Source of the DNA: Punctularia strigosozonata HHB-11173 SS5 | Lineage: Eukaryota; Basidiomycota; Agaricomycetes; Corticiales; Punctulariaceae | Direction: 5' to 3' | Assembly: GCF_000264995.1 (NCBI RefSeq) | Contig: NW_006767441.1 | Location: 942,370-1,006,369 of the forward strand | DNA: 64,000 bases | Shown: positions 16,222 to 20,802 of the stretch, piece after piece | Numbering within the stretch: the stretch's first letter is position 1 | How the letters are laid out: every line of letters starts with the position of its first letter | Made by a program: the position numbers and the translations under genes | The notes under the pieces: generated by a model | What the model saw: the letters and a program-made list of their open reading frames with translations, nothing else | The model's database searches: none | What the model was told of the DNA's origin: nothing

Positions 16222-17354
16222 TTACTGGTCCATCCACTTTTGCTGTAAGAACGTGCATTTGTGAGTAACATGGAGACACGAGAAGGTCAAGCTACGTACG
16301 AATACCCGATGGTGCACAGCCGAACCCGTGTCGTCGATGATCTTGATCTCCTCGTCGGTAAGATCAGGAACGTTGATCGTGTCGAGGAATTCCTTGATGC
16401 GCTCTGCTTTCGAGGACGTACTGTAACATGCGTGGTAAACACAGGATCACGACGCGAAATCTCATTGCACGTACGTGACTGGCAGTACACCCTTCTGGAG
16501 TAACCATTTCGTCAAAACCTGACCGTCGGAGACGGGCTTGCCGTATGCGCTACTCAGACGCTCGCGAATGCCCGGCAAAACTTTGTCGAGGGGGCCACCC
16601 TGATGGCGAACGATCGGGGAGAGGCCGCCATAAGAGGTGGTGAGAATGCCGTGTTTCTTGTCGAACTCGTATATAGGCAAGGCGGCTACGGGGCGTAACA
16701 GGTTAGCCAACGCGATGCAACAACGTGGGGTCGTCCGCTGACCTTTGTACACATAAGGATGGAATTCAATCTGAAAGCCTTTTCAGTCGTGCTGGCACCC
16801 GATATTGAGCGAACGTACTTGGTTGACCGCAGGAACGACCTTAGCGCCGGCGAGAAGTTCCTCCAGGTCCTGAACCCGGTAGTTGGAAACACCGATGGAT
16901 TTGGTCAAACCGGCCTCCTTCGCGGCTTCCAAGCCCTTCCATATCTCCTGTTGACGACCGAAGAACGAGTCTGCGCTGTGAATAAGAAAGAGGTCCACGT
17001 AGTCCAGCTGAATGCCTATGCGTAAGCTCCCCCCGTGCTCAGGACCGGAGATATACCAACCTTCAGCCTCTTCAAGGACCCTTTGAGATTGTCAATGACA
17101 GTTTCCCCTTCTTGAAGCTTATATACTTTCGTGACGACGTAGAGCTCTTCTCTTTTCTTCCCGGACTTGGCGATGGCGGAGCCCAATGAGTCCTCATTCC
17201 CATAAACCTGAGCGCCATCGAGATGCGTCACCCCGAGCGAGATGGCCTGGACGACGGCGTTCTCAGCGTCACGATTGTAGAGCGCAGTCCCTGTTCCGAA
17301 AGCGATCCACGGAATGGATGTTCCATCGTTCAGTTGAAACGTGGTTTTGGCCAT
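16222..17354 (-). CDS. Aldo-keto reductase
   Basis: Exons 17354-17061, 17007-16819, 16770-16743, 16685-16475, 16420-16300 and 16242-16222 give 287 residues, the usual AKR length. The catalytic tetrad is visible: Asp and Tyr in LDGAQVYGNE, Lys in VVTKVYK and His in FLIHSAD. The NADPH-binding end is present (LTKWLLQKG, TTSSKAERIKEFL). The family reduces aldehydes and ketones with NADPH; the substrate cannot be deduced. Two exons are very small (28 and 21 nt). The frame is open upstream to another ATG at 17447 that would add a 31-residue Arg/Ser-rich leader (MSYFLRRSVYSS), possibly a mitochondrial form; the canonical start MAKTTFQL is preferred. Confidence 0.85.
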
Positions 17355-17982
17355 AGCTTCGAGGATTAAGGGACGATATGGGGAGATCTGTGAGCGCTGA
17401 TGTGCGACTATCGAACTATAAACGCTTCGCCTGAGGAAATATGACATCTTTATGGGATTCATCTGAGTGATGATTACATTACAAGGCTTACTCATGATGC
17501 AAGGAGCCAGCCATATGATGCGTTGAGGTCCGAACTCCATTCATGTCACAGCAGCGATGACTCACTCAGGGAAAATAATCTCACTCAGATTAGCTCGGAA
17601 AGCGAACAGAGCAGAAGATCATATATTGACTGAAGTACGGCTGCTGTAAACATGATGAGAGAAACCTAAGGGAAGTCGAGAGAAGTTGTCGTTACACCAG
17701 GTGACCGACTTCATCCATGAAGATCGAATGGCCAGCCAAAGGGTGCACCTTTCTTATAAGCAGCCGGGAGATGAAGGACTGTCAACTAGGATGAACAGTC
17801 CAGCATGTGGTAAGGCCGGCCCTAGACTTGAGTTAAAAGATGCTGTCCGACGACTGCCAGCGCGACGTCTTATACGCTGGCAGTCCGCACGTGATCATCA
17901 TTATGACTGTATAGCAATTCACACGCCTCCCTTGTCTTTGTCCCCTCAAACTTTCCGGCTTTCTCGACCACCAAGAAGACCA
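17355..17982. promoter_or_regulatory. Shared divergent promoter region of the AKR and RPL7 genes
   Basis: 628 bp separate the two diverging start codons. It contains an 11-bp perfect inverted repeat, GACTGCCAGCG at 17852-17862 and CGCTGGCAGTC at 17875-17885, about 100 bp upstream of the RPL7 ATG. A pyrimidine-rich stretch follows just before the RPL7 start, as is typical of ribosomal protein genes. Confidence 0.45.
17852..17885. repeat. 11-bp inverted repeat with 12-bp spacer upstream of RPL7
   Basis: The two arms are perfect complements. It could be a binding site for a dimeric factor or a hairpin in an early 5' leader; no known factor was assigned. Confidence 0.6.
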
Positions 17983-19172
17983 ATGGCGCCCTCTACGACG
18001 TATGTTTCCTCGTTGACGATGTGCTTATGCTAGCTCAAATATACAATACCGAAGCGTCCCCACCGCTTCGGTTAGTATCTCTTTAGCAATGCCCGAGGCA
18101 ACATGGCGAGATAGCCCACGCTAACTCATGTTCCTGCTGCTCTCGTGGTACGTTATATCTCCATAGGACATTGCAGTCCCGGAGACTCTTCTCAAGAAGC
18201 GCAAGCAAAACGAGAAAGCTCGGGAGGAGCGTCTTGCTAAGGCCGCTGAGGCTCGCAAGGTACGTACAGTGCTTATCCATACTTTTTCTTCTGTTTTCTT
18301 GTGATGCATACATTTTATTGTGGCTAGTACGCTTGCGTGCGAAGCTGCCTCAATCAACCATCTTTCGGGACTGATTTATATAGTTGCCCATATTATGCTT
18401 CGCGGGCAGAGACTTACGCATAGTTGACAGGCTTCCAAGGCGAAGCGTAAGGTCGTCTTCAAGCGCGCCGAGTCCTATGTCAAGGAGTACCTTTCCAAGG
18501 AGAAGGAGGAGGTTCGCCTGAAGCGCACGGCGCGGGCTGCTGGCGACTTCTACGTCCCAGCTCAGCCCAAGGTGTACTTCGTCGTCCGTATTCGGGGGTG
18601 AGTTGTCCGGTGCACGGTTGAGCGTCGGTATAAATCAATGACTTCCCTATTACAGTATCAACGAAATCGCGCCGAAGCCTCGCAAGATCTTGCAGTTGCT
18701 CCGTCTCCTGCAGATCAACAATGGCGTCTTCGTCAAGGTGACTAAGGCTACCCAGCAGATGCTCCGTCTGGTCGAGCCCTACGTTACTTATGGGTATGTC
18801 GCAACAAAAATGTGTGCGCTCCTTTTCTTAACGATGTCTGAAATTCTCAGCGAGCCCAACCTGAAGTCGGTCCGCGAGCTGATCTACAAGCGCGGATATG
18901 GCAAGGTCAACAAACAGCGCATCCCCCTCTCCAGTAACACTGTCATCGAAAATGCTCTCAAAGAGTACGACATCCTCTCCGTCGAAGACCTCGTTCACGA
19001 GATCTACACCGCTGGCCCCAACTTCAAGCAGGCGTCCAACTTCCTCTGGCCCTTCAAGCTCTCCAACCCCACTGGCGGCTGGCGCACGCGGAAGTTCAAG
19101 CACTATGTCCAAGGCGGTGACTTCGGTGACCGCGAGCAAAACATAAACAAGCTCATCCGCCAGATGAACTGA
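17983..19172 (+). CDS. RPL7: 60S ribosomal protein L7 (uL30)
   Basis: Exons 17983-17999, 18055-18070, 18167-18259, 18431-18597, 18656-18793 and 18851-19172 give 250 residues. The sequence follows L7 throughout: [55 protein letters not shown], the [14 protein letters not shown] block and the terminal [19 protein letters not shown]. It sits in the large ribosomal subunit. The first two exons are only 17 and 16 nt; this reading gives [20 protein letters not shown], a normal fungal L7 N-terminus, and all phases agree. Intron 2 (96 nt) and intron 3 (171 nt) are longer than the ~55-nt norm; intron 3 holds a snoRNA. Confidence 0.95.
18297..18378 (+). ncRNA. Box C/D snoRNA in RPL7 intron 3, predicted LSU rRNA 2'-O-methylation guide
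   Basis: Within the unusually long intron 18260-18430 there is a C-box-like GTGATGC (18301-18307, one mismatch to RTGATGA) and a D box CTGA (18371-18374), about 70 nt apart. Just upstream of the D box, ACCATCTTTCGGG (18357-18369) is a 13-nt perfect complement of the conserved large-subunit rRNA segment CCCGAAAGAUGGU. By the rule of the fifth base upstream of box D, the target is the G of CCCG, which I recall as the yeast G805 position (snR39b); snR39 and snR59, which target the nearby A807, lie in yeast RPL7 introns. The flanking terminal stem is weak, so the exact ends are estimated. Confidence 0.8.
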
Positions 19173-19626
19173 CCTCGTGTTTATCGGGGATTAGGGTGAG
19201 GCGGTGTCAGGTTTATGTGACGATATGCTTTGTACATGCTACGCGCGATATGCATGGTTGCATTCTTATGATATATGATTAGCGCGCGAACACAACTATC
19301 GCCGGGACCGGATTCGTATTGTGAATGTTAGCATACGAGCGTTTCGGTGCAGGCAACTGGATGATCGTGCGCGAGGGCGAGTGGGTCACAGAGTTATCGA
19401 CCTGTCAGCATCCGCCCACGATGTGATTACATACATCGGCGTCGCCACCTTTCAGCGATCTCTACCTCGCCCACTGAAATGTCCACCTTACCATGATCTT
19501 TACGCACACGACTGGACAAATTATTCATCAGTCTGTCGCTAGGAGGCTGACTGAGTCGATACCCCATTGATCCGGCGATTGACGTTGACTCGTAATCCTG
19601 CGCTGCGCAATCCCAAATTCACAACC
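19173..19626. other. Intergenic region, no gene seen
   Basis: 454 bp between RPL7 and the next plus-strand gene. An open frame at 19321-19542 has no recognisable motif and is not called. Confidence 0.5.
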
Positions 19627-20802
19627 ATGTCTAGGACGTATCGTCCTCCGCACGCTCAACCTCGGGACTCTGGTCTATCAGATGCAGCGACATCGCGACA
19701 AGTGAATCAACTCCTTCACACTCTGAGGTATGTGTACACTCCCTTTTCACACGAATTAGCAGCTCAACAGACCCGCAGAGGAGAGCATTTCCGACATTCC
19801 CAGAACATACGTCGCTCCAGGGCTCATCTGGCATCTGGAAGTTCCCGTATGAGTACGACGTTGCCCGTATCTCTTATATACGGCGGCGATGTGGATGCCG
19901 AGCCTGCGAACGCCGTTAGGCCCGCCGCGGCTCAAGAGGAGGTGAAGCGAGTCGCTGGTCCCATTCCGAGGAGCTGGGTTAAATCACGATCACAGCACAC
20001 GGATGTCCGATATACGCCGGAATGGCGCTCCAATGCCCTATCCTTGGTGTTCTCGCACCTCCCTTCCGCCGACACGGCACGATCCTGCTTGATACAGTGC
20101 CCGAGCAAAAACGGATACACGACATCATCACAGAAACCTGCAGTACTTCCTCTTACCATCCAGTGCCTCCGTCTTGTCTTAGCGGAGTATTTCGATGATC
20201 TCGAGTTTCCCGAGGACCTTATACCATGGATCTCCCCTCATATGAAGCGCGATCTCATCCGGTTCGCAGCTGTGCATTTGCCACTCGGCAACTCAAAACT
20301 GTACCAGCTTTGGGGTCATGAAGGTCACGCCGCGGGCGAGATGATCATTATCGGTCCATATGCTTCGGTTCGACTGGGCGCTTTCCGGCGGGGTCAGCCC
20401 TCAGAAGCCGTGGTCAACAAAGTAGAAGATGACTGGGATGCGCCAGCCAGAGATGCGGAGACACCTCTCCAATCACTTGTGATCGTTTCGACTCCCCTGC
20501 CTGTGTCCTTGATATCGTCCCTTCCCCCAACGCTGACTCATGTGGCCTTACTCGACCTACCGCCGTCAATACAACCTCACATTCATCGCCTGCCCGGCAT
20601 TTGCCCCTTGCTAGAAGTCCTTGATTTCTCGTATAATACGTGGCTAGCCGGAGCTGGGAATGAGAAGACGCTGGACCGGGTCGAGTGGGGTCGATGGACC
20701 AGGCTGCGTGTTCTAGGTATGCGAGGCTGTTACGTGGACGACCAGTTTTCGCATAGAGTTCAGAAGTGTCGCTGGCAAGATGTAGAAATCGTTTTGCAAT
20801 GA
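19627..20802 (+). CDS. Unknown conserved-looking protein with weak leucine-rich repeats
   Basis: Exons 19627-19727, 19771-19846 and 19903-20802 give 358 residues. An alternative unspliced reading through 19728-19902 is open, but splicing at GTATGT and GTATGAGT gives a smoother product (RPAEESISDIPRTYVAPGLIWHLEVP). The C-terminal third shows LRR-like spacing: SLPPTLTHVALLDLPPS, ICPLLEVLDFSYNTWL, WTRLRVLGMRGCYV. A central helical region (IQCLRLVLAEYFDDLEFPEDLIPW) precedes it. I do not recognise the family; an F-box/LRR-like adaptor is possible but no F-box is evident. Its 3' end converges with the CTLH gene, with 134 bp between. Confidence 0.65.
   Translation: MSRTYRPPHAQPRDSGLSDAATSRQVNQLLHTLRYVYTPFSHELAAQQTRRGEHFRHSQNIRRSRAHLASGSSRMSTTLPVSLIYGGDVDAEPANAVRPAAAQEEVKRVAGPIPRSWVKSRSQHTDVRYTPEWRSNALSLVFSHLPSADTARSCLIQCPSKNGYTTSSQKPAVLPLTIQCLRLVLAEYFDDLEFPEDLIPWISPHMKRDLIRFAAVHLPLGNSKLYQLWGHEGHAAGEMIIIGPYASVRLGAFRRGQPSEAVVNKVEDDWDAPARDAETPLQSLVIVSTPLPVSLISSLPPTLTHVALLDLPPSIQPHIHRLPGICPLLEVLDFSYNTWLAGAGNEKTLDRVEWGRWTRLRVLGMRGCYVDDQFSHRVQKCRWQDVEIVLQ

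Follow-up and report, generated by a model that had tools for sequence, protein, structure and literature searches.

The window, that is, the whole 64,000-nucleotide stretch of Punctularia strigosozonata DNA that was analysed, carries on its plus strand a six-exon RPL7 gene, the third intron of which contains the elements of a box C/D snoRNA. The gene model is based on the spliced reading frame, on Pfam domains and on matches to ribosome chains. The predicted protein comprises the domains Ribosomal_L30_N and Ribosomal_L30, which are also found in its homologues at 84-92% identity (best 120 of 7618 matches; 7996 candidates scored), with Gloeophyllum, Mycena and Trametes named among the matches listed. 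Moreover, the L7/uL30 chains from solved ribosomes align with it over most of its length. A six-frame search of the 33.57-Mb assembly with exons 4-6 gave three matches, all inside the RPL7 gene, and in the viral-contig scan none of the 36 pattern matches to the RPL7 protein was confirmed. An open frame on the minus strand at 17016-17540 presumably resembles the start of an aldo-keto reductase.

17983-19172, plus strand: RPL7 (uL30) host gene, six exons, 250 aa
17983-17999, 18055-18070, 18167-18259, 18431-18597, 18656-18793 and 18851-19172, plus strand: RPL7 exons, from the spliced reading frame
18260-18430, plus strand: RPL7 intron 3, 171 nt, phase 0 after codon 42, GTACGT...ACAG, from the spliced reading frame

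The five introns measure, in order, 55, 96, 171, 58 and 57 nt. The sequence-only reading had described intron 3 as three times the local intron length; this holds against the median of the other four introns but not against intron 2, relative to which it is just 1.8 times as long.

Boxes, guide and methylation register

The features of intron 3 that bear on a snoRNA are the following:

18301-18307, plus strand: C box GTGATGC, one mismatch to RTGATGA, at the final position
18357-18369, plus strand: guide ACCATCTTTCGGG, 13-nt complement of LSU rRNA CCCGAAAGAUGGU, no mismatch
18366, plus strand: C, fifth nucleotide 5' of the D box, opposite the G that is the predicted 2'-O-methylation site (Gm805 in yeast)
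18371-18374, plus strand: D box CTGA, identical to the consensus CUGA
18296-18379, plus strand: putative mature box C/D snoRNA of about 80 nt, deduced from the boxes, with Rfam matches below gathering
18291-18383, plus strand: possible external stem of 4 bp, CTGT 18291-18294 with ATAG 18380-18383, including one G-U pair; weak, and may be due to chance

A C-like box and a D box within this intron, a guide perfectly complementary to 13 nt of the LSU rRNA and a D-box spacing predicting methylation at the G of CCCG had all been put forward by the sequence-only reading, and each was recovered in our analysis. At the RNA level, the C box GUGAUGC agrees with RUGAUGA at six of the seven positions; it is spaced 63 nt from the D box, and a single A separates the guide from the latter. 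In box C/D snoRNAs, methylation falls on the base that pairs with position five counted upstream from the D box. Here a single nucleotide separates GGG from the D box, which puts the C that faces G805 at position five; C18366 pairs with the G of CCCG, which corresponds to the register of Gm805 and not to that of Am807. The target thus matches that of yeast snR39b, by which Gm805 is made, as had been claimed. Inspection of 18308-18356 by eye showed no clear pair of C'/D' boxes.

The target CCCGAAAGAUGGU is a segment that we take to be conserved in eukaryotic LSU rRNA, and complementarity was scored against this conserved sequence, not against the rRNA of P. strigosozonata. A 30-letter pattern for the LSU just downstream of the target is absent from the assembly at up to three mismatches, so that the LSU stretch near the target seems to be missing from it. 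In the viral-contig scan the target had one match (L007), on a small contig piece with no Rfam match at gathering.

The ends of the putative snoRNA were set by assumption at 5 nt beyond each box. The C box lies 41 nt from the 5' splice site, and the presumed end of the snoRNA ∼36 nt from it, slightly shorter than the 41-60 nt given as the usual distance from 5' splice site to snoRNA in N. crassa (PMC2780460).

Taken together, these features lead us to propose, with a probability of about 0.92, that RPL7 intron 3 encodes a box C/D snoRNA of the snR39b type. We infer that this RNA is expressed, processed, assembled into a snoRNP and active in methylation. The RPL7 pre-mRNA would be spliced, and the intron-3 lariat would be debranched and trimmed to the box C/D core, on which the C and D boxes would assemble a fibrillarin-containing snoRNP. 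The 13-nt guide would then pair with its LSU rRNA complement, and a 2'-O-methyl group would be added to the G that faces the fifth guide position counted from the D box (Gm805 of yeast 25S rRNA). In Fusarium, five putative intronic snoRNAs, including SnR39, are reported to drop upon deletion of the debranching enzyme gene (PMC9606315).

Chance, decay and an alternative register

The elements described above might have come together by chance in an ordinary long intron in which an rRNA-complementary 13-mer stands beside a CTGA. The boxes taken alone are indeed not rare, since an RTGATG...CTGA pair was present in 198 of 20,000 dinucleotide shuffles of intron 3 and at 19 sites in the window, nine on one strand and ten on the other. 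The guide behaves differently: the combination of a C box with a D box and, next to the latter, the core guide ATCTTTCGG was found in none of the 20,000 shuffles and at one site in the window, where the 13-mer ACCATCTTTCGGG likewise has one site at up to one mismatch. Genome-wide, 0.004 copies of the full guide followed by NCTGA are expected, and for any 13-nt rRNA complement directly at a D box the expectation is ∼0.0001 per intron of comparable length, calculated for evenly distributed bases and rRNA totalling 5.4 kb. In addition, this 13-mer is the established guide for an established site, and RPL7 is already on record as host of such a snoRNA. We therefore regard a chance origin as very improbable, even though two further observations would suit it, namely Rfam scores under gathering and the lack of a stem abutting the boxes.

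The Rfam models were run with lax filters on 17000-20000 and gave four matches, two of them in intron 3; none reached gathering anywhere in the window. The snR39 model (RF01197) matched 18297-18376 over all 95 model positions with 22.5 bits (gathering 40, E 0.79), and the Tetrahymena model TtnuCD19 (RF02295) matched 18300-18376 over all 71 model positions with an E of 1.1. The gathering score is a statistical cut-off and not a biological feature. At E ≤10, RF01197 also gave weak matches, none above the cut-off, at a second site in this genome and in eight of the 14 control genomes, so the RF01197 score is not evidence alone; the evidence for the snoRNA is the guide at the D box. The second site (C18:368530-368625, 22.1 bits) was seen by eye to be without the full guide, in line with the genome-wide exact matches of the 13-mer, none of which lies there, and was dropped. 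The guide in the snR39 consensus, which shows the Gm805 register (UUUCGGGGCUGA), and that in the TtnuCD19 consensus are both identical to the guide of intron 3. Upstream of RPL7, weak matches to snoU13 (17446-17550, plus strand; 17 bits, gathering 46, E 2) and to sR35 (17437-17492; 13.5 bits, gathering 60) are probably due to chance.

In the 33.57-Mb genome as a whole, the exact 13-mer has 2 copies; the second (L001) is followed by GCTTT, with no D box, and was taken as chance. The C box-guide-D box pattern had two matches in a prokaryote collection of 257 billion bases, where 0.9 are expected under even base composition, and none in the viral-contig scan. The prokaryotic match at L004 lies, by eye, in an open coding frame and was rejected. 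A match on a Poribacteria MAG contig (L003, 4313-4384, minus strand; ACCATCTTTCGGGGCTGA) fits chance, and no tRNA or tmRNA was found at that locus.

The flanks of the boxes were searched for a terminal stem, which in box C/D snoRNAs is usual but not required. No stem of at least 3 bp has its inner end within 4 nt of the boxes. The nearest is the CTGT/ATAG stem, 5 to 6 nt outside the C and D boxes, and the longest flank pairing joins 18289-18296 with 18404-18411 (8 bp, including four G-U pairs); either could serve as an external stem. The Rfam snR39 model has two pairs at this place, which are flagged as non-standard in the alignment with intron 3. As a whole, the intron folds no better than its shuffles (z 0.36), 125 of 200 of which fold equally well or better. 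A possible hairpin, TTGCCC...GGGCAG (18384-18409, plus strand), noted by eye downstream of the snoRNA and ahead of the 3' splice site, is not the pairing that the folded intron prefers.

The missing abutting stem, together with a C box, GTGATGC, that is without its last A, would also be expected of a decayed copy, that is, a once functional snoRNA that lost its processing through these changes, with the working Gm805 guide located elsewhere. Against this, guide and D box are intact, and an exact search of the genome gave one other copy of the 13-mer, which has no D box. For the unusual final base of the C box, TtnuCD19 offers a precedent, as it shares UGAUGCAUA at this place (UGAUGC), and two terminal pairs are all that the Rfam snR39 model itself has. 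Decay thus seems to us a rather remote prospect.

A further possibility concerns the target and not the existence of the snoRNA: the guide could direct Am807, instead of or besides Gm805, as do the yeast snoRNAs of RPL7 introns. For this, the D box would have to be two nucleotides nearer, whereas its actual place puts the C at the fifth position opposite G805, and we hold an Am807 guide in intron 3 to be highly unlikely. If the intron 3 snoRNA makes Gm805 only, another RNA should guide Am807, provided that this base is methylated here. The genome contains one exact match to CATCTTTCGNCTGA, with 1.0 expected by chance, which is the sole copy of CATCTTTCGGCTGA and has a 10-nt complement in the Am807 register (L008 1501-1514; G000:C15:120541-120554, minus strand). 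It sits in a short palindrome, ACGCAT...ATGCGT, noted by eye; the sole C-like box at up to one mismatch in the 110 nt upstream, GTAATGA, precedes the D box by 39 nt; and its Rfam matches, sR9 (14.6 bits) and SNORD74 (13.6 bits), belong to other families and are far below gathering. Given the palindrome, the poor, close C box, these matches and the expected number, it was taken as probably due to chance. An exact search of the genome for TGATG N{2,32} ATCTTTCGNNTGA gave no match.

Relation to known snoRNAs

A box C/D snoRNA in an RPL7 intron is an arrangement already known in other fungi (PMC8476143). According to Lim et al. 2021, 82% of fungal species keep the RPL7 intron position, and each of the eight intron-poor fungi that they studied has it together with box C/D snoRNAs; the eight include Ustilago, Malassezia, Meira and Pseudozyma, with basidiomycetes such as Ustilago and Malassezia among them (PMC8476143). 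The snoRNA in intron 3 shares with theirs the RPL7 intron, the conserved position and the box C/D type; theirs is described under the yeast name snR59, which would imply A807 (PMC8476143), and the register found here is that of Gm805. The sequence-only reading had suggested that host gene and target region are conserved from yeast to this basidiomycete; this is sustained by what has been published (PMC8476143) but not by a comparison of DNA, for which one genome was used here. Among the titles listed in the literature searched, with subscription journals mostly outside it, none dealt with box C/D snoRNAs from an Agaricomycete, and such work may well exist.

In budding yeast, snR39 and snR59 are encoded by intron 2 of RPL7A and of RPL7B, respectively. 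They resemble the intron 3 snoRNA in their RPL7 host, their intronic location and the rRNA stretch that they recognize, and differ in that A807 is methylated, two bases from G805, as had been stated; these RNAs were compared by target site. The Gm805 register in an RPL7 intron is thus the sole, mildly new point of this work, as budding-yeast RPL7 introns carry Am807 guides. In yeast, the gene for snR39b lies outside RPL7. One scenario, which we offer only tentatively and consider rather doubtful, is that the fungal RPL7 intron ancestrally carried a Gm805 guide of the snR39b type, retained here, and that in budding yeast the D box shifted by two bases to give the Am807 guides snR39 and snR59, while Gm805 moved to the separate snR39b gene. 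Alternatively, the Gm805 guide may have entered this intron independently of the yeast Am807 guides. If this were true, basidiomycete RPL7-intron snoRNAs published as snR59 would be Gm805 guides. In any case, the intron described here would add an Agaricomycete to the fungal RPL7-intron snoRNAs and suggests that one host gene can carry the guide for a neighbouring nucleotide. This bears on the question of long-term linkage between snoRNA and intron (Lim et al. 2021, PMC8476143) versus the colonization of the same introns by unrelated snoRNAs (Hoeppner and Poole 2012, PMC3511168).

Outside the fungi, the host of snR39B in chicken is reported to be intron 3 of EIF4A2 (PMC2653536), which indicates that its host varies among eukaryotes, in agreement with Hoeppner and Poole (PMC3511168). 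The rpl7 motif of Li and Breaker, of about 30 nt, is described from introns of L7 mRNAs in 17 species. For TtnuCD19, ACCAUCUUUCGGGACUGAUU of intron 3 is identical to the family consensus, and the alignment with intron 3 has 20 nucleotides in common at the guide and D box; the organism is distant, and the score is 29 bits against a gathering of 70.

A close counterpart is snR39b itself. In N. crassa it is represented by CD47, an intron-encoded RNA of 75 nt with its guide at the D box and Gm785 as its site, and the term Am787 is absent from the main text of that paper (PMC2780460). CD47 is thus intronic like the RNA described here, and differs in a duplex of 16 bp as compared with 13 bp in P. 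strigosozonata (PMC2780460). The covariance score of intron 3 with the snR39b model RF01197 is low. In yeast snR39b (Gm805), in CD47 and in the RF01197 consensus, the guide, the position of the D box and the register are the same as in RPL7 intron 3.
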